64,000 nucleotides of DNA, from NCBI RefSeq assembly GCF_025642745.1, contig NZ_JANZKP010000013.1, positions 1 through 64,000 on the forward strand, in the 5' to 3' direction. Source of the stretch: Cellulomonas sp. RIT-PI-Y (GTDB lineage Bacteria > Actinomycetota > Actinomycetes > Actinomycetales > Cellulomonadaceae). The position numbers were made by a program, and so were the translations under genes. The first letter of the stretch is position 1. Each line of letters starts with the position of its first letter. Below are positions 1,212 through 51,872 of the stretch, one piece after another. The notes below the pieces were generated by a model. That model did no database searches and was not told the DNA's origin. It saw nothing but the letters and a program-made list of their open reading frames with translations.

Positions 1212-1865
1212 GTGACCCGGGTACTGGTCGTGGACGACGACGCGCTGGTGCGCACCCTGCTCCGGACGATCCTGGAGCAGCAGGGCGTGACCGTCGTCGG
1301 CGACGCCACCGACGGCGACGAGGTGGTCCCGGCGGTCCAGGCGCACCGCCCGGACGTGGTGCTGATGGACCTGCGGATGGCCCGGATGTCCGGCGTCGAG
1401 GCCACCGCCGCGGTTACCCGGCTGCCGGACCCGCCCGCGGTGCTGGTGCTGACCTCCTTCGACGCGGAGGACCTGGTGCTGGCCGCGCTGCACGCCGGTG
1501 CCCGCGGCTACCTGGCCAAGGACTCCGCCCCGGCCGAGATCGCCGACGCCGTGCACGCGGTCGCCGCCGGAGGCAGCCGGCTCTCCGACCGGGCCGCCCG
1601 GGCGCTGGTCGACCACGTCGGCGCGGACTCCGGCGCCCACCGCGCCGCGGAGGCCCGGCGTCGGCTGGAGGTGCTGAGCGATCGCGAGCTGGAGGTGGCG
1701 GTCGCGGTGTCCCGGGGACTGTCGAACGCGGTGATCGCGGCGCAGGGATTCGTCAGCGAGGCGACCGTGAAGACGCAGCTGGCACGGGCGATGACCAAGC
1801 TGGGACTGGAGAACCGGGTGCAGCTGGCCACGTTGGTGGACCGGGCGGGACTGGCGGAGGGCTAG
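1212..1865 (+). CDS. LuxR/NarL-family response regulator
   Basis: 217 residues. The receiver domain occupies ~1-120, with the acidic pair DDD near the N-terminus, the phospho-acceptor Asp in VVLMDLRM and the Lys in YLAKDSAP. A GerE helix-turn-helix sits at ~150-210 (LSDRELEVAVAVSRGLSNAVIA). GTG start, preceded by TACCCT and six bases, a leaderless-type arrangement, so it may have its own promoter despite following the kinase by 20 bp. It is the cognate output regulator of the upstream kinase (inference from adjacency). Its TAG stop interlocks with the stop of the convergent fni gene in the tetranucleotide CTAG. Confidence 0.93.
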   Translation: MTRVLVVDDDALVRTLLRTILEQQGVTVVGDATDGDEVVPAVQAHRPDVVLMDLRMARMSGVEATAAVTRLPDPPAVLVLTSFDAEDLVLAALHAGARGYLAKDSAPAEIADAVHAVAAGGSRLSDRAARALVDHVGADSGAHRAAEARRRLEVLSDRELEVAVAVSRGLSNAVIAAQGFVSEATVKTQLARAMTKLGLENRVQLATLVDRAGLAEG

Positions 1866-2932
1866 CGCCCCGACCGCCGCGCGTAGGCTCCGGCGTCGAT
1901 GCCGCGCAGCTCGCAGAACTCCCGCACCGGACCGGTGAGCAGCAGATCCGTCCCGCGCAGCTCTGCCGGGGTCCGGGCGCCGAGCAGCGTCATGATGTCG
2001 CCGATCTGGCTCAGCCAGGTCTCGATCCGGGCGATCAGGGCCGGCTCGCCGTCGGTCAGCAGGGTGCGCAGGAACCCGCCCGCGACGCCGACCGCCAGGG
2101 CGCCGAGCGCCAGGGCCCGCACCGCGTCCAGGGGGTGGCGCAGCCCGCCGGAGGCCAGCAGGTCGACGTCGGTGCCGGCGGCGTCCAGCAGGCCCTCGAC
2201 CGCGGACTGCCCCCAGTGGGCCAGGTAGGGCATGCCGCCGTCGGTGCGGCGGTCGGACTCGATCGCCGTGAAGTCGGTGCCGCCGCGGCCGGAGACGTCG
2301 ACGGCGGCCACGCCCAGGGCGCGCAGGGCGGTGACGGTGCCGCGGGACATCCCGGCACCGACCTCCTTGGCGATCACCGGGACGCCCACGCCCTCGACGA
2401 TGGCGGCCAGGTTGTCGGCCCACCGGGTGAAGTCCCGGTCGCCCTCCGGCATGACGATCTCCTGCGCCGGGTTCAGGTGCACCTGCAGCGCGTCTGCCTC
2501 CAGGATCTCCACCGATCGGCGGGCCTGCTCCGGGCTGAGGTTCGCATTGATGTTGGCCAGCACGAACCCGTCGGGGTTCTCCTCACGCAGGATCCGGAAG
2601 GAGGGGACGGCAGCGGGCTCGCGGTGCAGGATGCCGGTGGAGCCGCTGGCGATCGGCACGCCGGTCTCCCGGGCGGCGCGGGCCAGGGCGCGGTTGATGG
2701 TGCCGGTGTGCTCGGTGCCGCCGGTCATCGCGTTGATGTAGAGCGGGACCGGCCAGGCGAGCACCCGCCCGTGCACGGCGAGGTCGACCGCGGCGCGGTT
2801 CCCGGCGGACAGCGGGTGGTTCATCGGGCGGACGTGGTCGAAGTCGTGCGGCAGCGGCTCGGCGTGCTGGGCGGAGGCCAGGCGCACGTGGTCGGCCTTG
2901 CGGGTGGCGTCGCGCTCGGCGGGGCCGGTCAC
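1862..2932 (-). CDS. fni: Type 2 isopentenyl-diphosphate isomerase
   Basis: 356 residues. FMN- and NADPH-dependent enzyme interconverting IPP and DMAPP, the last step before prenyl synthesis. Family signatures in order: RKADHVRLA near the N-terminus, YINAMTGGTEHTG, SGSTGIL, LANINANLSP, QVHLNPAQE, the FMN-site stretch IAKEVGAGMS, DVSGRGGTDF and the glycine loop ASGGLRHPLDA. The GTG start at 2932 gives a 4-bp GTGA overlap with mvaK2 and the conventional N-terminus; longer upstream extensions run antisense-like through mvaK2. It is the last gene of the mevalonate operon, and its function is well supported by the linked kinases. Confidence 0.95.
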   Translation of the reverse strand: MTGPAERDATRKADHVRLASAQHAEPLPHDFDHVRPMNHPLSAGNRAAVDLAVHGRVLAWPVPLYINAMTGGTEHTGTINRALARAARETGVPIASGSTGILHREPAAVPSFRILREENPDGFVLANINANLSPEQARRSVEILEADALQVHLNPAQEIVMPEGDRDFTRWADNLAAIVEGVGVPVIAKEVGAGMSRGTVTALRALGVAAVDVSGRGGTDFTAIESDRRTDGGMPYLAHWGQSAVEGLLDAAGTDVDLLASGGLRHPLDAVRALALGALAVGVAGGFLRTLLTDGEPALIARIETWLSQIGDIMTLLGARTPAELRGTDLLLTGPVREFCELRGIDAGAYARRSGR

Positions 2933-4005
2933 GGCGTCGGCTCCGCGACGTGCAGGTCCAGGTGCCGCACGCCGGTCGCCGTCCAGGCCGCGATCATCGG
3001 GCCGAGGTCGCTGCCCCGGTCGACCAGGACGATGCCGCAGTCGCCGCCGCCGGCCCCGGAGGACTTGGCGGCCGCGCCGACGGTCTCCGCGCCCTCGCAC
3101 AGGGCCTTGAGCGCGGGCGTCTCGACGTCGACCCCGGCGGCGTTGGCCAGCGAGGTGAGCAGTCCGCGGGCGCGCCGCAGCTCGACCTTGGCTGCCGGGG
3201 CGTCGTCGTGCGCGATGGCGTCGGCCAGGGCGTCCACGCAGTCCCGGGACTCGGCCAGGAAGTCGGGGTAGTGCGACTCGGCGGCGCCCTTGCGGGACTG
3301 CATCGCCTCGACCAGCCGGGTGGTCGAGGCGGGCTGGCCGGTCCAGCCGACCACCAGGTCCATCGTGGTGGGGGTCGGCAGCCGGCGGACCGAGAGACCG
3401 GGCCAGTCGGCGGCGAGCAGGTGGGTCAGCGGGGTGCCGGTCTCCAGTCGCAGCCGGACCCACTCGCGGTCCAGCGCGGCGTAGCGGATCCACCCGCCGT
3501 ACAGGCTGGCGGCGACGTCGCCGCCGGAGCCCATCGGGTTGACCCGCAGGGTGGCCAGCAGGGCGAGCTTGAGCAGCTTGTCGGTCGGCAGGTGCAGCTC
3601 GTAGAAGGTGTCCAGTGCGCGCACGGTGGCCGCGGTGACCGCGGCGGAGGAGCCCAGGCCGAACTTGCGACCCGAGTCGTCGTCCAGCTCGCTGCTGATC
3701 TCGATGTCGTAGAAGGACAGTGTGCGGCCCTGCTCGGTGGCGAACCGCTCGACCACCGCGATGGCGGCCAGCACGTAGTCGAACGGCCGGGAGTCGTGGT
3801 CCAGCACGACCCGGTGGCCGTTGCGGCGCCAGACGATCGGCAGCCGGCCGTACTGGTCGGAGGTGATCGACCCGGCGTCCTCGGCCGGGGCCAGGCGCAC
3901 GGTGATGTGCCGGTCGACGCCGATCAGGATCGCGGGGTAGCCGGCCTCGACCACGGCGTACTCCCCGGCGACGAACAGCTTGCCGTGGGCGCGGGTCTCG
4001 ATCAT
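2929..4005 (-). CDS. mvaK2: Phosphomevalonate kinase (GHMP family)
   Basis: 358 residues. Phosphorylates mevalonate-5-phosphate to the diphosphate. The GHMP N-terminal motif KLFVAGEYAVVEAGYPA and the ATP-binding loop GLGSSAAVTAATV are clear. GSGGDVAASLYGG in the middle and SSGAGGGDCG near the C-terminus are typical of bacterial PMK. The ATG at 4005 overlaps the mvaD stop by four bases, and the mvaK2 stop overlaps the fni start, so all four enzymes look translationally coupled. The gene order mvaK1-mvaD-mvaK2-fni is the one known from the Streptomyces CL190 mevalonate cluster. Confidence 0.95.
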   Translation of the reverse strand: MIETRAHGKLFVAGEYAVVEAGYPAILIGVDRHITVRLAPAEDAGSITSDQYGRLPIVWRRNGHRVVLDHDSRPFDYVLAAIAVVERFATEQGRTLSFYDIEISSELDDDSGRKFGLGSSAAVTAATVRALDTFYELHLPTDKLLKLALLATLRVNPMGSGGDVAASLYGGWIRYAALDREWVRLRLETGTPLTHLLAADWPGLSVRRLPTPTTMDLVVGWTGQPASTTRLVEAMQSRKGAAESHYPDFLAESRDCVDALADAIAHDDAPAAKVELRRARGLLTSLANAAGVDVETPALKALCEGAETVGAAAKSSGAGGGDCGIVLVDRGSDLGPMIAAWTATGVRHLDLHVAEPTP

Positions 4006-5018
4006 GCGACCGCCCCCGCCACGCTCAGCGCCGGACCCGGGCGGGCGGTGATCACCAGGCGGTCCAGATCGCCGTCGGGACCCTTGGACAGCGCCGCGGC
4101 CACCCGGTCCAGATCGGCGGCGGCGCACAGCACCTTGACGTTCGGGCCGGCGTCCATGGTCGCCCAGCACGGCAGGCCGGCGGCCCGCAGCGCGACGACC
4201 TCGTCCAGCACCGCGACCGTCTGCCCGGTCCAGTACCGGACCGGCGGGCGGGCGCCGAGCATCGTGGCGTGCATCCGCAGCGCGTTCGACTCGGCCAGCT
4301 CACCGAGCCCGGCCAGGTCGCCCGCGGCCACCCGGTCCAGCATCAGCGAGACGTCCTGCTCGGTGGACTCGACCCACCCGGCGAAGAACGGCGAGGTCTG
4401 CACCGTGCGGCGCATCGCCTCCCGGCTGGACACCGACTTGATCCCCGGGTTCAGCACCACCACCGCCATCGCGGGGTCCAGCGCACCACCGGGCTCGCCG
4501 CCCGGCACCGGCTCGGCGTAGCTGCCGGCGTCGTCGGTCCCGGCGTGCCAGACCACCAGGCCGCCGAACACCGACCGGCAGGCGGAGCCGGAGCCCCGTC
4601 GTGCCAACCGGGACAGGCCGCGGTCGTCCAGGTCCAGTCCGTACGCCCGCGCCCCGGCACCGGCCAGGGCCGCGAACCCGGAGGCGGAGGAGGCCAGCCC
4701 GGCGCCGATCGGCACGGTGGAGGTCGACGTGACCCGGGCGAATCCGCCGCCGCCCGCCTGCTCGCGGACCAGATCGAGGAAGCGCCGCACCCGGTCCAGC
4801 GAGTTCCCGGTCATCGGGGCGCCGTCCAGGGTGGCGAGGTCCGTGCCGGTCGCCTGCGCCTCGGGGTCGTCCGGCACCACGGTGGTGGTGCTGCGGAACG
4901 CGTCCAGGGTGAGCGACAGCGAGGAGGTGGCCGGCAGGGCGAGGGCCTCGTCACGCTTGCCCCAGTACTTGGCGAGCGCGATGTTGGCGTGCGCGACGGC
5001 GGTCGCGGGAGCAGTCAT
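4002..5018 (-). CDS. mvaD: Diphosphomevalonate decarboxylase
   Basis: 338 residues. ATP-dependent decarboxylation of mevalonate diphosphate to IPP. Diagnostic motifs: NIALAKYWGKRDEALALPA at the N-terminus, SSLSLTLD, the GHMP-type loop GAGLASSASGFAALA, and GSGSACRSVFGG, which follows the catalytic region. The ATG at 5018 lies in an ATGA overlap with mvaK1; residues upstream of it in the frame lack homology-like character. Downstream coupling to mvaK2 is again by 4 bp. Presence of MvaD proves that this is the classical bacterial lower mevalonate route, not an archaeal variant. Confidence 0.95.
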   Translation of the reverse strand: MTAPATAVAHANIALAKYWGKRDEALALPATSSLSLTLDAFRSTTTVVPDDPEAQATGTDLATLDGAPMTGNSLDRVRRFLDLVREQAGGGGFARVTSTSTVPIGAGLASSASGFAALAGAGARAYGLDLDDRGLSRLARRGSGSACRSVFGGLVVWHAGTDDAGSYAEPVPGGEPGGALDPAMAVVVLNPGIKSVSSREAMRRTVQTSPFFAGWVESTEQDVSLMLDRVAAGDLAGLGELAESNALRMHATMLGARPPVRYWTGQTVAVLDEVVALRAAGLPCWATMDAGPNVKVLCAAADLDRVAAALSKGPDGDLDRLVITARPGPALSVAGAVA

Positions 5019-5983
5019 GCGAGGTGCACCTGGGTGGGGGAGGACTGACGCGCGTCGATCCGGTGCAGCCACGTGCGGGGTGCGCCCGAGCGGCGCAGGG
5101 CAGCCGCGATGCTACCAGCGGAGGCGGCATCGCTCGCGAGCGCGAGCAGGCAACCGCCCTGGCCACCGCCGGTCAGCTTGGCGCCCAGCGCCCCCGCCTC
5201 CATCGCAGCGCGTTGCAGCCGGTCCAGCTCCGGCGAGCTGACCCCGAGCTCGGCCAGGGCCTGGTGCGCACGGGTCAGCCGCTCGCCGAGCAGCACCGGG
5301 CGGTCCAGCCGGAGGTCCTCCACGGTGGCCCGGGTGATCCGGCCCAGCTCGGAGATCAGCTGGGCGCCGCGGGCGGGATGCCGGTCCCGGAACGCCCGGA
5401 CGTCGGCGACCGCGACCCGGGTCCGGCCGTGCACGCCGGTGTCGGCGACCACCAGGTGCGCGCTCAGGTGCAGGTCCAGCGGTCGCATCGCGCCGCCCTG
5501 GAACCAGACCGGCACCGTCGAGGCGGTGGTGCGGGCGTCCAGACCGGAGGGGCTGCCGTGCGCGACCCGCTCGCCGACCTGCACCAGGTCGAAGTGCTCC
5601 TGCGCGGTCAGCGTCCGGCCGGCCAGGTCGGCCAGCGCCAGGGCCAGCGCCCCGGCGGTCGCCGCCGACGACCCGAGGCCACGGGCGGCCGGGATGCTCG
5701 ACTCGGTGCTCAGGACGAGGTCACGGTGCGGCAGGCCGAGGTGGTCGAGGGTGGCCTCGATGGCGGCGCGGGGTGCGGCCAGCTCCTCCGGGGCGTCCGC
5801 GAGCGTGCCGGAGTACAGCACCGACTCGACGGACAGCGGCCCGGGCTCGCGGCGCACGGTGGCCCGCATCGGCAGGCTCGCCAACGGCAGCGCGATGGCG
5901 GGCTCGCCGTACACCACGGCGTGCTCCCCGGTCAGGATCACCTTGGCGCGGGTGTGGCCCGTGCCGGCGCGGTTCTCGATCAT
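5015..5983 (-). CDS. mvaK1: Mevalonate kinase
   Basis: 322 residues. Phosphorylates mevalonate to mevalonate-5-phosphate. GHMP kinase motifs: KVILTGEHAVVYGEPAIALP at the N-terminus, the P-loop-like PAARGLGSSAATAGALA, and the C-terminal KLTGGGQGGC. The Asp of SGLDARTT is the likely catalytic base. The ATG at 5983 is preceded by a GAGGAG ribosome-binding site that overlaps the spacer behind the permease gene (7 bp apart), so the enzyme genes are co-transcribed with the transport-like genes upstream. This is the entry enzyme for any mevalonate, made internally or imported. Confidence 0.95.
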   Translation of the reverse strand: MIENRAGTGHTRAKVILTGEHAVVYGEPAIALPLASLPMRATVRREPGPLSVESVLYSGTLADAPEELAAPRAAIEATLDHLGLPHRDLVLSTESSIPAARGLGSSAATAGALALALADLAGRTLTAQEHFDLVQVGERVAHGSPSGLDARTTASTVPVWFQGGAMRPLDLHLSAHLVVADTGVHGRTRVAVADVRAFRDRHPARGAQLISELGRITRATVEDLRLDRPVLLGERLTRAHQALAELGVSSPELDRLQRAAMEAGALGAKLTGGGQGGCLLALASDAASAGSIAAALRRSGAPRTWLHRIDARQSSPTQVHLA

Positions 5984-5990
5984 CGGCTCC

Positions 5991-7343
5991 TCACATCAGC
6001 TGGGTGATCAGCCACGGGCCGGCGTACAGCGACATGAACTGCACCCCGTAACTGACACCCATCCGGTTCAGAGTGCCGCAGGTCAGGCCGACCAGCAGCA
6101 CGGCGAAGACATTGATCCACCCCGCGTCCAGGTACGCGAGCAGGAGGACGAACACCAGGAACAGCGCCAGCACGGCCTCGTGCGGCACCCGCCGGGTGAC
6201 GATCGCGGTCAGGCGGAAGGAGTAGCGCACCGCCAGCACGTAGGACAGCACCAGGCTGATCGCCCCGCCGATCAGCACCGCGACGATGAACTGCGGCGTG
6301 CTGAGGATGTGGTGCAGATTGTGGTCGAGGGTCAGCACCGGCGGTGCGTTGAACAGCGCGTTCGCCGGTCCGATCGACACCGGGGACAGCGGCAGGCCGA
6401 TCGCCAGCAGCGGGATGATCAGCCCGGCCAGGTAGGTCGAGTGCGCCAGGGCGGCCATCGCGGTGATCGCCCGGCTGGACCGCTGACCCGGGTCCTTCGC
6501 CCGGGCGCCCGCCGCCTCGCCGAGCAACAGCGTGAGCGCCACCGGACTCAGGAAGAACAACGGGGTGGAGATCGCCGACACCGCCGCGCTGGTGCCCAGC
6601 TCCGCGCGGGTCAGCAGCTTGCGCGGGCTGAGCGACTGCCCCTTCAGCTCCTCGCGGGTGATCACCACCGGGGTGCGGCCGGTGCGCGGCATCGCGGCCC
6701 GCAGCGCCGGGTTCAGCACCTCGAACAGCGAGACCAGCAGCGGACCCGCGGTGATCGACAGGAAGAAGGACACCGTGATCGTGCCCTCGGCCGGGAGGAT
6801 CCCGATGGTCCGGTACAGCGCCTGCACACCCTGGAACAGCAGGATCAGCGGCACGATCGACAGCAGCGACAGGAACCGGTTCTTGCCGATCAGCGCCAGC
6901 ACCACCGCGCCGATCACGAACAGCAGCGACCCGTGCTCGCGCAGGTCCTCGGCGTAGGGTGCGATGGCCCCGGCGATCAGCAGCGCCAACGGCACCGAGA
7001 CCAGGGTGCCGATCACCGACCCGGCCGCCATCTTGCGGATGGTCTGGGCCGCCAGCCCCTCGCGTTTCAGCGTCAGGGCATGGTCGATCATCGGAGCGGA
7101 CAGCACCCCGCCCGGCAGCCCGACCAGTGCGGTCGGGATCGAGTTGGTCAGGTTCAGCGTGATGACCGCGGCGATGAAGAACGCGAGCACGACCTGCGGG
7201 TCGACCCCGGCCAGCACCAGGGTGAGGGTGACCGGCAGCAGCACCGAGGTCTCGTCGGTGCCGGGCACGAAGCCGATCAGGGTGTACAGCACGACGGCGG
7301 CCAGGGCGGCGATCACCATCGGCAGCAGCAGAGTCAGGTCCAC
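5991..7343 (-). CDS. TctA-family (tripartite tricarboxylate-type) permease
   Basis: 450 residues and about 11-12 hydrophobic segments. The N-terminus has a TctA-like GFVPGTDETSVLLPV, the counterpart of the GxxPGxG motif, followed by NSIPTALVGLPGGVLSAPM and HALTLKREGLAAQTIRKMA. These match the first repeat of TctA permeases, where a conserved IPG-DGYP region and a (K/R)G motif occur. TctA normally works with a small TctB and a periplasmic TctC; no TctC is here and only an 81-residue membrane protein lies upstream. It is 7 bp from mvaK1 in the same operon, so its substrate may be a carboxylate of that pathway, mevalonate being the obvious candidate (inference). Confidence 0.8.
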   Translation of the reverse strand: MDLTLLLPMVIAALAAVVLYTLIGFVPGTDETSVLLPVTLTLVLAGVDPQVVLAFFIAAVITLNLTNSIPTALVGLPGGVLSAPMIDHALTLKREGLAAQTIRKMAAGSVIGTLVSVPLALLIAGAIAPYAEDLREHGSLLFVIGAVVLALIGKNRFLSLLSIVPLILLFQGVQALYRTIGILPAEGTITVSFFLSITAGPLLVSLFEVLNPALRAAMPRTGRTPVVITREELKGQSLSPRKLLTRAELGTSAAVSAISTPLFFLSPVALTLLLGEAAGARAKDPGQRSSRAITAMAALAHSTYLAGLIIPLLAIGLPLSPVSIGPANALFNAPPVLTLDHNLHHILSTPQFIVAVLIGGAISLVLSYVLAVRYSFRLTAIVTRRVPHEAVLALFLVFVLLLAYLDAGWINVFAVLLVGLTCGTLNRMGVSYGVQFMSLYAGPWLITQLM

Positions 7344-7406
7344 TCGGGTCTCTCGGGTTCAGGGTGCACCGGGTTCGGTGCCGCGGCGGCTGTGGATGGG
7401 TCGTCG

Positions 7407-7652
7407 TCAGTCGACGGCCGCGCCCGGGTCGTCCACGATCCGCACGTCCCGCTTCGGCCGGATCACCGCGCAGGCGACCGCGAACCCCAGCGCGGCGCCA
7501 CCCAGCCCCCAGAACAGCGGCTGCCCGCCGACGACCTGGCCCAGGAGTACGGCGCCGACCGTGGGGACGGCGCAGACGACCAGTGCGATCACCAGGTCAC
7601 GCAGCGAGACCCGGTCGCCCCAGATCTCGACGTAGTCGCCGTCGGTGCCCAT
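7407..7652 (-). CDS. Small two-helix membrane protein, first gene of the mevalonate operon
   Basis: 81 residues. A short polar N-terminus (MGTDGDYVEIWGDRVS) leads into two hydrophobic segments at ~19-40 and ~45-62, then a charged tail. The ATG at 7652 has a good ribosome-binding site (GGAGG, 5-6 bases away), which decides the start. It lies 63 bp before the TctA-like gene on the same strand, the place where a TctB-type small subunit would be expected, although TctB proteins are usually about twice this long with four helices. I do not recognise the family. A transporter accessory subunit is the best guess. Confidence 0.6.
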   Translation of the reverse strand: MGTDGDYVEIWGDRVSLRDLVIALVVCAVPTVGAVLLGQVVGGQPLFWGLGGAALGFAVACAVIRPKRDVRIVDDPGAAVD

Positions 7653-8875: not shown

Positions 8876-9616
8876 TCAGAGGTCGGCCAGGTCCCGGGCG
8901 CGGGACAGCACGGCGCCGACCATCGCGGGGGTGAGCCGCCCGGTGAAGGTGTTCTGCTGACTGACGTGGAAGCAGCCGAGCAGGGTGAGCCGTGCCTCGC
9001 CCCGGTGCAGGACGAGCTCGGTGCCGTGGCCGAAGCGCGGCCGGGGACGGGGCACCGCCCAGCCCTGTTCCTCCAGGGTCCGCAGCAGCGCGTCCCAGCC
9101 GAAGGCGCCGAGCACCACGGCCACCCGGGGCCGGACCAGCTCCAGCTCGCGGGACAGCCACGGTCCGCACCGGCGGCGCTCGTCGGGGGTGGGCTTGTTC
9201 GCCGGGGGTGCGCAGTGCACCGGGGCGGTGATCCGGACGCCGGTGAGTCGGAGCCCGTCGTCGATGTGGGTGCTGGTGGGCTGGTTCGCCAGGCCCGCCG
9301 CGTGCAGGGCGGCGAACAGGAAGTCGCCGGACCGGTCGCCGGTGAACATCCGGCCGGTGCGGTTCGCGCCGTGGGCGGCGGGCGCCAGTCCGACGATCAG
9401 GATGCCTGCCGTCGGGTCGCCGAAGCCGGGTGCGGGGCGTCCCCAGTAGGTCTGGTCCCGGAACGCCGCCCGCTTCTCCGTCGCCACCTGTTCGCGCCAG
9501 GCGACCAGGCGGGGACAGGCCCGGCACTCGGCGACCGCGCCGTCCAGCTCCAGCAGGTCCAGGGCGTCCGGGGCGGTGGTGGCGGGGTAGTCCGGGTCGT
9601 CGGGACGGTCGCTCAT
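8876..9616 (-). CDS. Type-5 uracil-DNA glycosylase (UdgB-like)
   Basis: 246 residues. Excises uracil and other deaminated bases from DNA. Family-5 marks: a Cys pair near the N-terminus (CRACPRLVAWRE) belonging to a four-Cys 4Fe-4S site, motif GLAPAAHGANRTGRMFTGD in the active-site loop, and the C-terminal HVSQQNTFTGRLT loop that resembles the H(P/V)S motif. The Ala/Gly-rich active-site loop, where other UDG families carry Asp or Asn, fits family 5. It runs convergently to the SDR gene; yciO lies 19 bp upstream on the same strand. Confidence 0.9.
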   Translation of the reverse strand: MSDRPDDPDYPATTAPDALDLLELDGAVAECRACPRLVAWREQVATEKRAAFRDQTYWGRPAPGFGDPTAGILIVGLAPAAHGANRTGRMFTGDRSGDFLFAALHAAGLANQPTSTHIDDGLRLTGVRITAPVHCAPPANKPTPDERRRCGPWLSRELELVRPRVAVVLGAFGWDALLRTLEEQGWAVPRPRPRFGHGTELVLHRGEARLTLLGCFHVSQQNTFTGRLTPAMVGAVLSRARDLADL

Positions 9617-49766: not shown

Positions 49767-51872
49767 TCAGTCGCGGGCCGTGACCAGCTCCCGGGGCTCC
49801 GGTGCGCCCTCGACCGACAGGTGCGGGGTCACCCGGTCCGCCCAGCGGGGGTACCACCAGTTGCGCCGGCCGATCAGGTGCATCAGCGCGGGCACCAGCG
49901 TCAGCCGGACCAGGAAGGCGTCCACCAGCACCGCGATCGCCAGCCCGATCCCGATCGCCGACACGATCCTCTCCCCGGAGAACCCGAACGAGCTGAACAC
50001 CGCGAGCATGATCGTGGCGGCGGTCGCGATCACCCGGCCGGTCTCCGCGACGCCGACCCGGACCGCACGGCCGTTGTCCCGGGTGTGCGACCACTCCTCG
50101 TGCATCCGGGAGACCAGGAACACCTGGTAGTCCATCGACAGCCCGAACATCACCCCGACGATGATCACCGGCACGATGTACATGATCGGCGCCCCGGACC
50201 CGACCCCGAGCAGCCCCGCCCCCCAGCCGAACTGGAAGATCGCGGTGATCGCGCCGAGCCCGACCGCCAGGGTGACCAGGTTGGTCAGCGCCCCGACCAG
50301 AGGGACCAGCACGCTGCGGAACGCGATCATCAGCAGCAGGAACCCGAGCACGGCGACCAGCCCCAGGTAGAGCGGCAGCTTGCTCATCAGGGCCTCGGCG
50401 ATGTCGATGTTGGTCGCCGTCTCCCCGCCGACGTACACCGTGACGCCGGAGTCCGGGATCACCTCGGTGCGCAGCCGGTCGACCAGCTGCTGGGTCTCCT
50501 CGGCCTGCGCGCTGGTGGTGGGGGTCACGGCGGCGACCGCCACGGTCTGCCCGTCCTGGACCGGCACCGACCGCACGGCCGCGACCCCCGGCACCTCGGG
50601 CAGCTCCTCGGTCAGCGCGGTGAACGCCTGCGCGGCGGCGGCGTCCGGGAGCTCGGCGACCAGCACCAGTGTCGCGTCGACGCCCTCGCCGAAGGCCGGT
50701 CCCATCAGGTCGGCGTACTCCCGGGTCGGCGATCCGACCGGGTCGGACGAGGCATCGGCGTTCCCGACCCGCATGCTCAGCGCGGGCACCGCGAGCGCGA
50801 CCAGCACCACCAGGACGCCGGCGGCGATCCGGCGGGGTGCCGCGCGCAGCACCAGGGCCCACCGTGCGGACAACGGCGCGGCGTGCGAGCCCTCGACCAG
50901 CCCGGCGCGCTGCTTGCGGGACAGCACCCGGGTGCCCAGCATGCCGAGCAGCGCGGGCAACAGGGTGATCGCCGCGGCCACCGTGAACAGCACCGTCACG
51001 GCGGCGGCCTGACCCATCCCGGTCAGCACCTCCATCCCGACCACGGCCATCCCGAGCAGCGCCACCACCACGGTCAGTCCGGCGAACACCACCGCGCGGC
51101 CGGAGGTGGTCACCGCCTGCGTGATCGCGTCCGGGACCGAGCTCCCGGCCACCAGCGCCTTGCGGAACCGGTTGACGATGAACAGCGCGTAGTCGATGCC
51201 CACGCCCAGGCCGATCAACGCGGCCATGGTCAGGGAGGTCGAGTCCAGGTCGACCGCGTGCGCGGCGATCATCACGACCAGCAGCGACGCCCCCACCCCG
51301 GTGATGCCGGTCAGGATCGGCAGCGCGGCCGCCCACCCGGAGCGGAACACCAGCAGCAGGATCACCAGGGCCGCGATCAGCCCGATCGCCTCCGGCCCGT
51401 GCGAGGGCTCCGGCTGCTCGGTGAAGGCCGTGCCCCCGACCGCGACCGTCAGACCGTCGTCGGCGTACCTGTCGGTGACCTCCCGGACCTGGTCGACGTC
51501 GACCTGGTCGGTGGTGGTCAGCGTGGCGAAGGCGGTGTCCCCGCTGATCTGCCGGGCGCCCTGATCGCCGTACGGGCTCGCGACGTCCTCGACGCCGGGC
51601 AGTGCTGCCAGCTCGGCCAGCATCGGGTCGACCTCGGCCTGGACGGCGGGGCCGTCGACGTCGGCCGCCTGCCAGACCACCGTGCCGGTCGAGGTGTCCG
51701 AGCTGCCCATCAGGGCGTAGGCCCGGGACGACTCGCTGTCCGGGAGGGTAGTGGCGGTGGTGAACGCGGCGCCCATCCCGAGGGCGGCGACCGCGAGCCC
51801 CACCAGGAGCACCACCCACCCGACGACGACGGCCCTGCGCCGTCGATAGCTGAACTGCGCGAGACCTGACAC
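49767..51872 (-). CDS. MMPL/RND-family membrane transporter
   Basis: 701 residues with two repeats of one plus five helices. Each repeat has a large external loop (~45-165 and ~375-490) and an RND helix block with GLGVGIDYALFIVNRFRKAL, the charged TM4 motif, and VGVMFGLSMDYQVFLVSRMH in the second half. Actinobacterial MMPL proteins move lipids, glycolipids or siderophores. GTG at 51872 has GAGGAG eight bases away. It lies 91 bp downstream of a two-component operon on the same strand; a CGGACGTCCG palindrome at 51900-51909 just before it could be a regulator site. Confidence 0.93.
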   Translation of the reverse strand: MSGLAQFSYRRRRAVVVGWVVLLVGLAVAALGMGAAFTTATTLPDSESSRAYALMGSSDTSTGTVVWQAADVDGPAVQAEVDPMLAELAALPGVEDVASPYGDQGARQISGDTAFATLTTTDQVDVDQVREVTDRYADDGLTVAVGGTAFTEQPEPSHGPEAIGLIAALVILLLVFRSGWAAALPILTGITGVGASLLVVMIAAHAVDLDSTSLTMAALIGLGVGIDYALFIVNRFRKALVAGSSVPDAITQAVTTSGRAVVFAGLTVVVALLGMAVVGMEVLTGMGQAAAVTVLFTVAAAITLLPALLGMLGTRVLSRKQRAGLVEGSHAAPLSARWALVLRAAPRRIAAGVLVVLVALAVPALSMRVGNADASSDPVGSPTREYADLMGPAFGEGVDATLVLVAELPDAAAAQAFTALTEELPEVPGVAAVRSVPVQDGQTVAVAAVTPTTSAQAEETQQLVDRLRTEVIPDSGVTVYVGGETATNIDIAEALMSKLPLYLGLVAVLGFLLLMIAFRSVLVPLVGALTNLVTLAVGLGAITAIFQFGWGAGLLGVGSGAPIMYIVPVIIVGVMFGLSMDYQVFLVSRMHEEWSHTRDNGRAVRVGVAETGRVIATAATIMLAVFSSFGFSGERIVSAIGIGLAIAVLVDAFLVRLTLVPALMHLIGRRNWWYPRWADRVTPHLSVEGAPEPRELVTARD

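Follow-up and report, generated by a model that had tools for sequence, protein, structure and literature searches.

Bacterial mevalonate uptake with a periplasmic binding protein is represented by the proteobacterial TRAP-type mevalonate binding proteins. In Pseudomonas mevalonii, mevalonate is catabolized through the mvaA-mvaB operon, and the complete mevalonate cluster of the Streptomyces CL190 type contains mvaK1, mvaD, mvaK2, and fni. Passages of a 2018 review state that TRAP and TTT transporters, the latter being the family of TctABC, share no sequence similarity, that TctA without TctC is rare in bacteria and unexplained, and that archaeal TctA-only transporters have TctA without TctB or TctC (PMC5812351). 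Rickettsiales, according to passages of a further paper, keep only the downstream genes and import an isoprenoid precursor, IPP (IDP) (PMC13001223). Laboratory-altered eukaryotic monocarboxylate carriers, MCT1 F360C and JEN1t Y180G, import mevalonate; the authors of the paper on them count no earlier known mevalonate importer besides the MCT1 mutant, and also state that several bacteria possess import systems (PMC12405511). A literature search of titles and abstract openings, with few subscription journals covered, found among the papers listed neither a TctA-mevalonate link nor a named bacterial mevalonate permease, and the passages of two genome papers that deal with mevalonate genes mention neither TctA nor a tricarboxylate transporter (PMC5720513, PMC10556750). 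The genes analyzed here suggest that a TctC-free TctA pair serves as a bacterial mevalonate importer, so far unrecognized, and the context of the pair points to an unrecognized route by which bacteria take up mevalonate from their surroundings.

We analyzed a 64,000-nucleotide stretch of Cellulomonas sp. RIT-PI-Y DNA (the window), in which a preliminary description had placed an operon of six coupled minus-strand genes. All six were confirmed at the position given there. The first gene (7407..7652, minus strand) encodes an 81-residue two-helix membrane protein, which is proposed, from its conservation as upstream partner and its predicted structure, to be the small subunit of a mevalonate importer. 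The second (5991..7343, minus strand) encodes a 450-residue TctA-superfamily permease, the proposed mevalonate transport subunit, on the basis of its Pfam match and conserved context. The other four, likewise on the minus strand, were named by NCBIfam equivalog cut-offs, all of which were exceeded: mvaK1, encoding a mevalonate kinase of 322 residues (5015..5983; TIGR00549, 230.2 bits, cut-off 163.05); mvaD, a diphosphomevalonate decarboxylase of 338 residues (4002..5018; TIGR01240, 297.7 bits, cut-off 171.35), which is the sole MvaD match in a profile search of the strain's genome; mvaK2, a phosphomevalonate kinase of 358 residues (2929..4005; TIGR01220, 426.5 bits, cut-off 165.7); and fni, a type 2 isopentenyl-diphosphate isomerase of 356 residues (1862..2932; TIGR02151, 327.7 bits, cut-off 281.3). 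Intergenic distances from the 81-residue gene onward are 63, 7, −4, −4, and −4 bases, the last four genes being linked by the 4-base overlaps. Of the three flanking genes scanned, two form a two-component system at one end of the operon (a histidine kinase and a response regulator) and the third, at the opposite end, is an SDR; none was mvaA, mvaS, TctB, or TctC, in line with the earlier statement that mvaA and mvaS are absent from both operon ends.

The operon shares mvaK1, mvaD, mvaK2, and fni with the CL190-type cluster and is set apart from that cluster, as generally described, by having no adjacent mvaA or mvaS. It also differs from the P. mevalonii operon, since it contains neither HMG-CoA reductase (HMGR) nor HMG-CoA lyase and its enzymes run to IPP, although homologues of the pair elsewhere adjoin both of these genes as in P. 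mevalonii. In Rickettsiales, the imported compound is IPP and there is no dedicated mevalonate step, unlike what is proposed for the window operon. Cellulomonas has further instances of this operon, and the permease and small-protein pair is found again across phyla, so the arrangement goes beyond chance.

The permease resembles TctA almost over its full length (PF01970, 99.3 bits, cut-off 28.9; residues 11-431 on profile positions 2-417 of 423), and its predicted structure is polytopic and helical (mean pLDDT 82.2). It matched no NCBIfam model, a PDB profile search with it gave nothing at E<=1, and Foldseek found no PDB match at E<=0.001 for the permease model or the small-protein model. At E<=0.001, the 81-residue protein matched nothing in Pfam or NCBIfam, and it has no credible Pfam family; its model comprises a short beta hairpin and helices at residues 17-41 and 45-63 (mean pLDDT 88.6), and W, D, L, and PKR were invariant in a 39-row alignment. 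In contrast to TctABC, with a TctB of four or five helices, the partner here is a two-helix protein in the model. It did not match TctB, and TctB was absent among the matches listed (25 of 34 families) for its 35 aligned relatives. TctC was not found by profile search in the genome of the window strain, which agrees with the earlier characterization of a TctA-like permease without TctC. Among the genomes tested that carry the permease family, TctC is present in 17 of 59; in one of these 17 (G330), its gene lies about 8.5 kb from the pair.

The best 80 of 453 relatives were examined as named loci, all carrying both pair members, and each of the 80 has a homologue of the small protein immediately upstream of the permease. 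The two are a conserved pair, which differs from the archaeal TctA-only transporters by this small partner and by a context that indicates a substrate. Neither the constancy of the small partner (80/80 loci) nor the placement of the pair beside mevalonate-catabolism genes had been seen in the preliminary description.

Among these best 80, 68 loci adjoin lower-mevalonate genes, eight adjoin a class II (degradative-model) HMGR, and four adjoin neither; the survey of other genomes thereby bears out the proposed tie between permease and mevalonate genes. Gene orders vary among the 68: mvaK1 is downstream on the same strand or missing from the stretch in 47, upstream on the same strand in five, and on the opposite strand in 16. 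In the remaining four loci (L124, L132, L139, and L143), the fetched stretch contains the pair and no mevalonate gene; ten neighbors scanned in three of them were unrelated genes, and HMGR was missing in two of the three genomes tested. In a survey of 297 genomes of the order, MvaD (over cut-off) or HMGR was present in 17 of 17 genomes with a substantial permease match, these 17 spanning three genera and hence not being independent, compared with 36 of 280 genomes without such a match. Here, 37 genomes whose MvaD matches all fell under the cut-off (85 minus 48) were scored as lacking MvaD, and the two-piece match of G252 was counted once. A 51-residue permease match in G257, which has neither MvaD over cut-off nor HMGR, was left out of the 17. 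G292 and G300 share their coordinates and are apparently a single genome, and the L119 contig and G179:C2 are equal in size.

The pair is also found beside genes for mevalonate breakdown. In one genus (g18), the order HMGR, HMG-CoA lyase, small protein, permease occurs in four of six fetched stretches, the other two (L065 and L067) holding the pair without HMGR. Three proteobacterial plasmids, of Roseomonas, Rhizobium, and Lichenicola, carry it with genes annotated as 'HMG-CoA reductase, degradative' and 'HMG-CoA lyase', and on a replicon of Burkholderia the small protein and permease are accompanied by HMGR. All seven permease-adjacent reductases tested exceeded the cut-off of the 'degradative' NCBIfam model, which the distant mvaA of the relative G220 did not match. 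With four HMG-CoA lyases as queries, no lyase was found in any of the 80 loci, including the eight with HMGR. A catabolic role was considered for these eight, all in Bacillota, and set aside, as no lyase gene was found nearby and the scanned neighbors are regulators and unrelated enzymes; judged by profile matches, their reductase is class II or degradative-model only. Class II HMG-CoA reductases can also serve biosynthesis.

Among the named genomes, 42 in which the pair adjoins lower-pathway genes were searched with profiles; no HMGR was found in 32 of the 42, and IspH was present in 31 of those 32. A below-cut-off HMGR match in G327 was scored as absent. The single-contig genome G151, outside the 42, also has IspH and no HMGR. 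The combination of pair, lower pathway, and IspH without HMGR fits a salvage layout in MEP bacteria, in which the imported compound would be mevalonate. In the other 10 of the 42, HMGR is present, own mevalonate synthesis is possible, and import may not be the sole direction.

Mevalonate is the metabolite common to the lower-pathway and the reductase neighborhoods. Because both kinds of neighborhood share it, a mevalonate importer is the best reading of the pair, and we consider it very probable, from genomic context, that the two proteins form a two-subunit mevalonate importer independent of a binding protein (TctC). The 81-residue protein and the permease would associate as a secondary transporter, with ion coupling and inward direction inferred like the substrate itself, and would import mevalonate. 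The kinases MvaK1 and MvaK2 and the decarboxylase MvaD, from the same operon, would then convert it to IPP by phosphorylation and decarboxylation, and the Fni step would make DMAPP. Across other genera, many bacteria would use the cassette as a salvage module in genomes with IspH and without HMGR; elsewhere, the pair would supply mevalonate to HMGR working in the oxidizing direction and to HMG-CoA lyase, leading to catabolism. A wider picture, which we put forward tentatively, is that mevalonate is a shared bacterial nutrient, taken up by an unrecognized family of TctC-free two-protein importers and salvaged into isoprenoids in many MEP-pathway Actinomycetota and Bacillota, catabolized elsewhere, and the sole isoprenoid source in a few (Schaalia vaccimaxillae, possibly the window strain). 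Such a family, if true, would explain IspH bacteria that have the lower mevalonate pathway and no mevalonate synthesis, give a function to TctA proteins without TctC, and supply engineered isoprenoid production with an importer ready for use. In genomes scored as having the mevalonate pathway, salvage may be mistaken for synthesis.

For the window strain itself, the searches for mvaS, mvaA, and MEP genes that the preliminary description had proposed gave a divided outcome. No match to HMGS (PF01154) or HMGR (PF00368) was found in the draft genome, rated 99.98% complete, and these absences, together with that of IspH (PF02401) and the presence of the importer pair, would suit a strain truly without mvaS, mvaA, and IspH, that is, an obligate auxotroph living on imported mevalonate. 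Against this, both nearest relatives (G220 and C. denverensis) carry HMGR, with mvaS adjoining it, as tblastn showed in G220 and an alignment of the DNA showed in C. denverensis. A stretch of about 16 kb, syntenic to their mvaS-mvaA region, is missing from the window strain's assembly, at a contig break. Contig C35 opens within a DtxR/IdeR-type gene, 3.6 kb away from mvaA, with the gene's reading frame intact, as expected for an assembly break. Because the contig opens in the middle of a gene, a clean loss of mvaS-mvaA was considered and discounted; the missing stretch is probably an assembly gap, and auxotrophy of the strain is improbable. The earlier proposal of mevalonate import and salvage is favored by the 32 of 42 genomes without HMGR and is weaker for the strain in which it was made.

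Placement in a mevalonate operon could also be incidental, the permease carrying citrate or another TTT substrate. Its TctA superfamily membership and the four context-free loci speak for this, as does the variety of carboxylates that known TTT systems move, according to passages of the review cited above (PMC5812351). However, two enzymatically different neighborhoods in three phyla converge on mevalonate, and every order-survey genome with a substantial match has a mevalonate gene, making another substrate a poor candidate. Overflow export of mevalonate or another pathway intermediate, for which the 10 genomes with HMGR could hold a surplus, is very unlikely, as the 32 without HMGR have no known means of making mevalonate and the operons that include HMG-CoA lyase use it up. 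Just as unlikely is salvage beside a working MEP pathway in the window strain, which the preliminary description implies: Dxr is present, and IspH without HMGR is the pattern of 31 of the 42 genomes of the same context, but IspH went undetected in the window strain, in C. denverensis, and in G220, a relative assembled as a single contig, and a complete MEP pathway is unlikely because IspH is undetected despite Dxr.

Since IspH is undetected in all three clade genomes, the clade seems reliant on the mevalonate route, with the permease supplementing synthesis. Under the importer reading, the operon would most likely form the lower part of the principal isoprenoid pathway in this Cellulomonas-like clade, and mvaS-mvaA of the window strain would lie at a separate locus within the draft gap. 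Of the 26 same-order MvaD rows that do not adjoin the permease, 23 belong to one group, and the MvaD of the window lies outside it.

The lower-mevalonate operon occupies positions 1862-7652 on the minus strand, in the order 81-aa membrane protein, 450-aa TctA-superfamily permease, mvaK1, mvaD, mvaK2, and fni. Gaps between successive genes were 63, 7, −4, −4, and −4 bases, which is consistent with a single transcript for all six. At one flank are a response regulator gene, which converges with fni, and a histidine kinase gene; an SDR-family oxidoreductase lies at the other. The scanned flanking genes contained none of mvaA, mvaS, TctB, and TctC, so that the six-gene layout without adjacent mvaA or mvaS, as given in the preliminary description, was confirmed. 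By permease, the closest named relative was Cellulomonas denverensis (95% identity). ARAGORN called a tRNA-Cys at 9269-9362 on the plus strand, within an opposite-strand ORF (8876-9616), and this call is probably spurious.

The small protein and the permease were then analyzed as a pair by a cross-phylum scan with one genome per species (84,980 species), from which the best 80 of 453 relatives were kept. The small protein was immediately upstream of the permease in 80/80 kept loci (at locus L112 it was detected via a longer relative from g18, a genus of the same order). Since the two are always paired, we infer that they form one complex. Within the fetched stretches of these best 80 of 453, lower-pathway genes were present at 68 loci, HMG-CoA reductase (HMGR) at 8, and neither at 4. 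The genera included Cellulomonas, Corynebacterium, Pseudoclavibacter, Tessaracoccus, Actinomyces, and Propionibacterium, as well as Enterococcus, Isobaculum, Sporolactobacillus, Bacillus, and Clostridium. At the 68 lower-pathway loci, the pair was on the same strand without mvaK1 upstream in 47, on the opposite strand in 16, and on the same strand with mvaK1 upstream in 5; in Clostridium rhizosphaerae, it sits between mvaD and mvaK2. The four loci lacking any mevalonate gene in the fetched stretch (L124, L132, L139, and L143), at three of which the ten neighbors scanned were unrelated, count against a universal link between the pair and mevalonate.

The small protein keeps W, D, L, and PKR without variation across a 39-row alignment, and its confident model consists of a short beta hairpin followed by two helices, with no credible Pfam family and no significant fold match. 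G28 and D30-E31-T32 were among the invariant residues of the permease (43-row alignment), whose model is polytopic and helical, with no significant PDB match.

The same association was observed within the order. A substantial permease match was found in 17 of 297 genomes, counting the two-piece match of G252 once and leaving out a 51-residue match in G257, which had neither MvaD over the cut-off nor HMGR. MvaD over the cut-off and/or HMGR was present in 17/17 permease genomes versus 36/280 others, a comparison whose Fisher value overstates independence because all 17 belong to only three genera. Neighborhoods differed from genus to genus. The permease heads the lower-pathway operon in the window's genus, of which four other genomes had neither permease nor MvaD. 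In g30, the lower operon lies on the strand opposite the permease, the two facing each other; in G052 a thiolase-HMGR fusion and mvaS are present as well, on the other side, and no HMGR was found in G151 and G179. In g18, HMGR and HMG-CoA lyase directly preceded the pair in four of six fetched stretches (G114, G208, G282, and G042, the last without MvaD), and the pair lacked them in two (G230 and G291). Mevalonate islands, in which thiolase-HMGR fusion, mvaS, importer pair, and lower operon lie together, were seen in G052 (L063, 3620-14397) and Actinomyces haliotis (L120, 5500-15644).

The lower pathway takes mevalonate to IPP, and the catabolic pair of HMGR and HMG-CoA lyase converts mevalonate to acetoacetate and acetyl-CoA; therefore, mevalonate is the compound needed by both types of neighborhood. 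A 2018 review describes characterized tripartite TctA-superfamily members as carboxylate carriers and bacterial TctA without TctC as an unexplained rarity (PMC5812351). A permease of this superfamily is a fitting mevalonate carrier. Searches for TctC in 59 genomes gave matches in 17, with one in G330 placed ~8.5 kb from the pair, and none in the window's genome. HMGR was absent from 32 of 42 named genomes with lower-pathway context, 31 of which have IspH, counts that rest on a chosen 50 of the 80 loci. These 32 have no known mevalonate-making enzyme, yet have the enzymes to use mevalonate, indicating inward transport. Draft gaps are not the whole cause, because G151, a single-contig genome outside the 42, likewise has the lower pathway, the pair, and IspH without HMGR. 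HMGR was present in 10/42, including all five named Cellulomonas/Cellulosimicrobium genomes tested, and there the putative importer can only supplement synthesis. Recurrence of the pair with mevalonate genes is strong and the operon a real feature, and the assignment of mevalonate as substrate is about as good as genomic context can make it. Mevalonate import by the permease, the central proposal of the preliminary description, is probably correct.

On plasmids of Roseomonas, Rhizobium, and Lichenicola, permease homologues accompany genes annotated as "hydroxymethylglutaryl-CoA reductase, degradative" and as "hydroxymethylglutaryl-CoA lyase"; a small hypothetical protein separates the reductase from the permease. 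An unannotated Burkholderia replicon carries the small protein and permease together with a reductase. All seven permease-adjacent reductases tested (five Bacillota loci, one g18, one Roseomonas) exceeded the NCBIfam TIGR00532 ("degradative") cut-off. The distant mvaA of G220, a near relative of the window's genome, matched NADPH models only, below their cut-offs. Eight Bacillota loci (L128, L141, L144, L147, L148, L153, L155, and L157) carry HMGR beside the pair with no lyase or lower-pathway gene nearby; the five of these reductases tested all fit the degradative model, and scanned neighbors at three of the eight were regulators and unrelated enzymes. Because four lyase queries found no HMG-CoA lyase gene near any of the 80 kept loci, and class II reductases may also be biosynthetic, mevalonate catabolism by pair-linked genes is well supported only for g18 and for the three proteobacterial plasmids of Roseomonas, Rhizobium, and Lichenicola.

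The window's genome was also proposed to salvage mevalonate for want of making it. Profile searches of this draft (3.52 Mb, 94 contigs, 99.98% complete) detected Dxr but not HMG-CoA synthase, HMGR, or IspH. Both nearest relatives, the single-contig G220 and C. denverensis (G297), have HMGR, with mvaS adjoining it (by tblastn in G220 and by a DNA alignment spanning both genes in C. denverensis). Window contig C17 aligns with G220 up to L170:18285 and then continues to its own end at 50215, and contig C35 aligns from L071:14303; mvaS and mvaA of G220 sit in the ~16 kb between. This region is largely conserved in C. denverensis, and its matching pieces in the window's genome were all <200 bases. 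A clean deletion would be expected to leave a sealed junction and an assembly gap a mid-gene contig start; an insertion would look like the latter. C35 starts within a DtxR/IdeR-type gene whose reading frame is unbroken, at a distance of 3.6 kb from mvaA, and so the absence of mvaS and mvaA is probably a draft artefact. Inability to make mevalonate is probably not the reason for any import here. IspH likewise had no match in G220 or C. denverensis, and was present in the five other same-genus genomes tested (G060, G130, G158, G253, and G292), indicating that the clade of three probably lives on the mevalonate route. Missing IspH in this clade with Dxr kept in the window's genome resembles the partial MEP pathway described for Listeria in a 2026 review of isoprenoid pathways in bacteria (PMC13001223). 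That review covers partial pathways, including Rickettsiales processing imported IPP, and a word search of its main text gave no hits for terms starting with transporter, uptake, or salvage. A 2025 paper states that several bacterial species have mevalonate import systems, and that a mutant mammalian carrier was the only previously known mevalonate importer (PMC12405511). Our literature search, of limited coverage, found no paper on a TctA-mevalonate link. TRAP-type mevalonate binding proteins are known, and the same limited search found no paper on these.

A quick MvaD tree of 95 proteins, for which 30 of the order survey's 48 MvaD loci above the cut-off could be used, showed 3 changes of the label "beside the permease" versus a shuffled mean of 22.9. 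Among 26 same-order rows not beside the permease, 23 formed one group apart from the Cellulomonas group of 11, and three (G003, G248, and G288) clustered with permease-linked rows. Cellulomonas may have joined a salvage-type lower module to an upper pathway at a separate locus. Schaalia vaccimaxillae DSM 15804 (L117) has the lower pathway and importer pair, with HMGR and IspH both undetected in its draft genome, and is a candidate obligate mevalonate auxotroph. G003, a single-contig genome of 1.8 Mb from the same order as the window, has the lower pathway but no HMGR, TctA-like match, or IspH. At its locus L074 (6992-8404 and 8735-13485), mvaK1 of the lower operon is immediately preceded by a gene for an MFS transporter, as expected if another carrier had replaced the permease in mevalonate uptake in this single case; G003 is possibly a mevalonate auxotroph with an importer of another kind.
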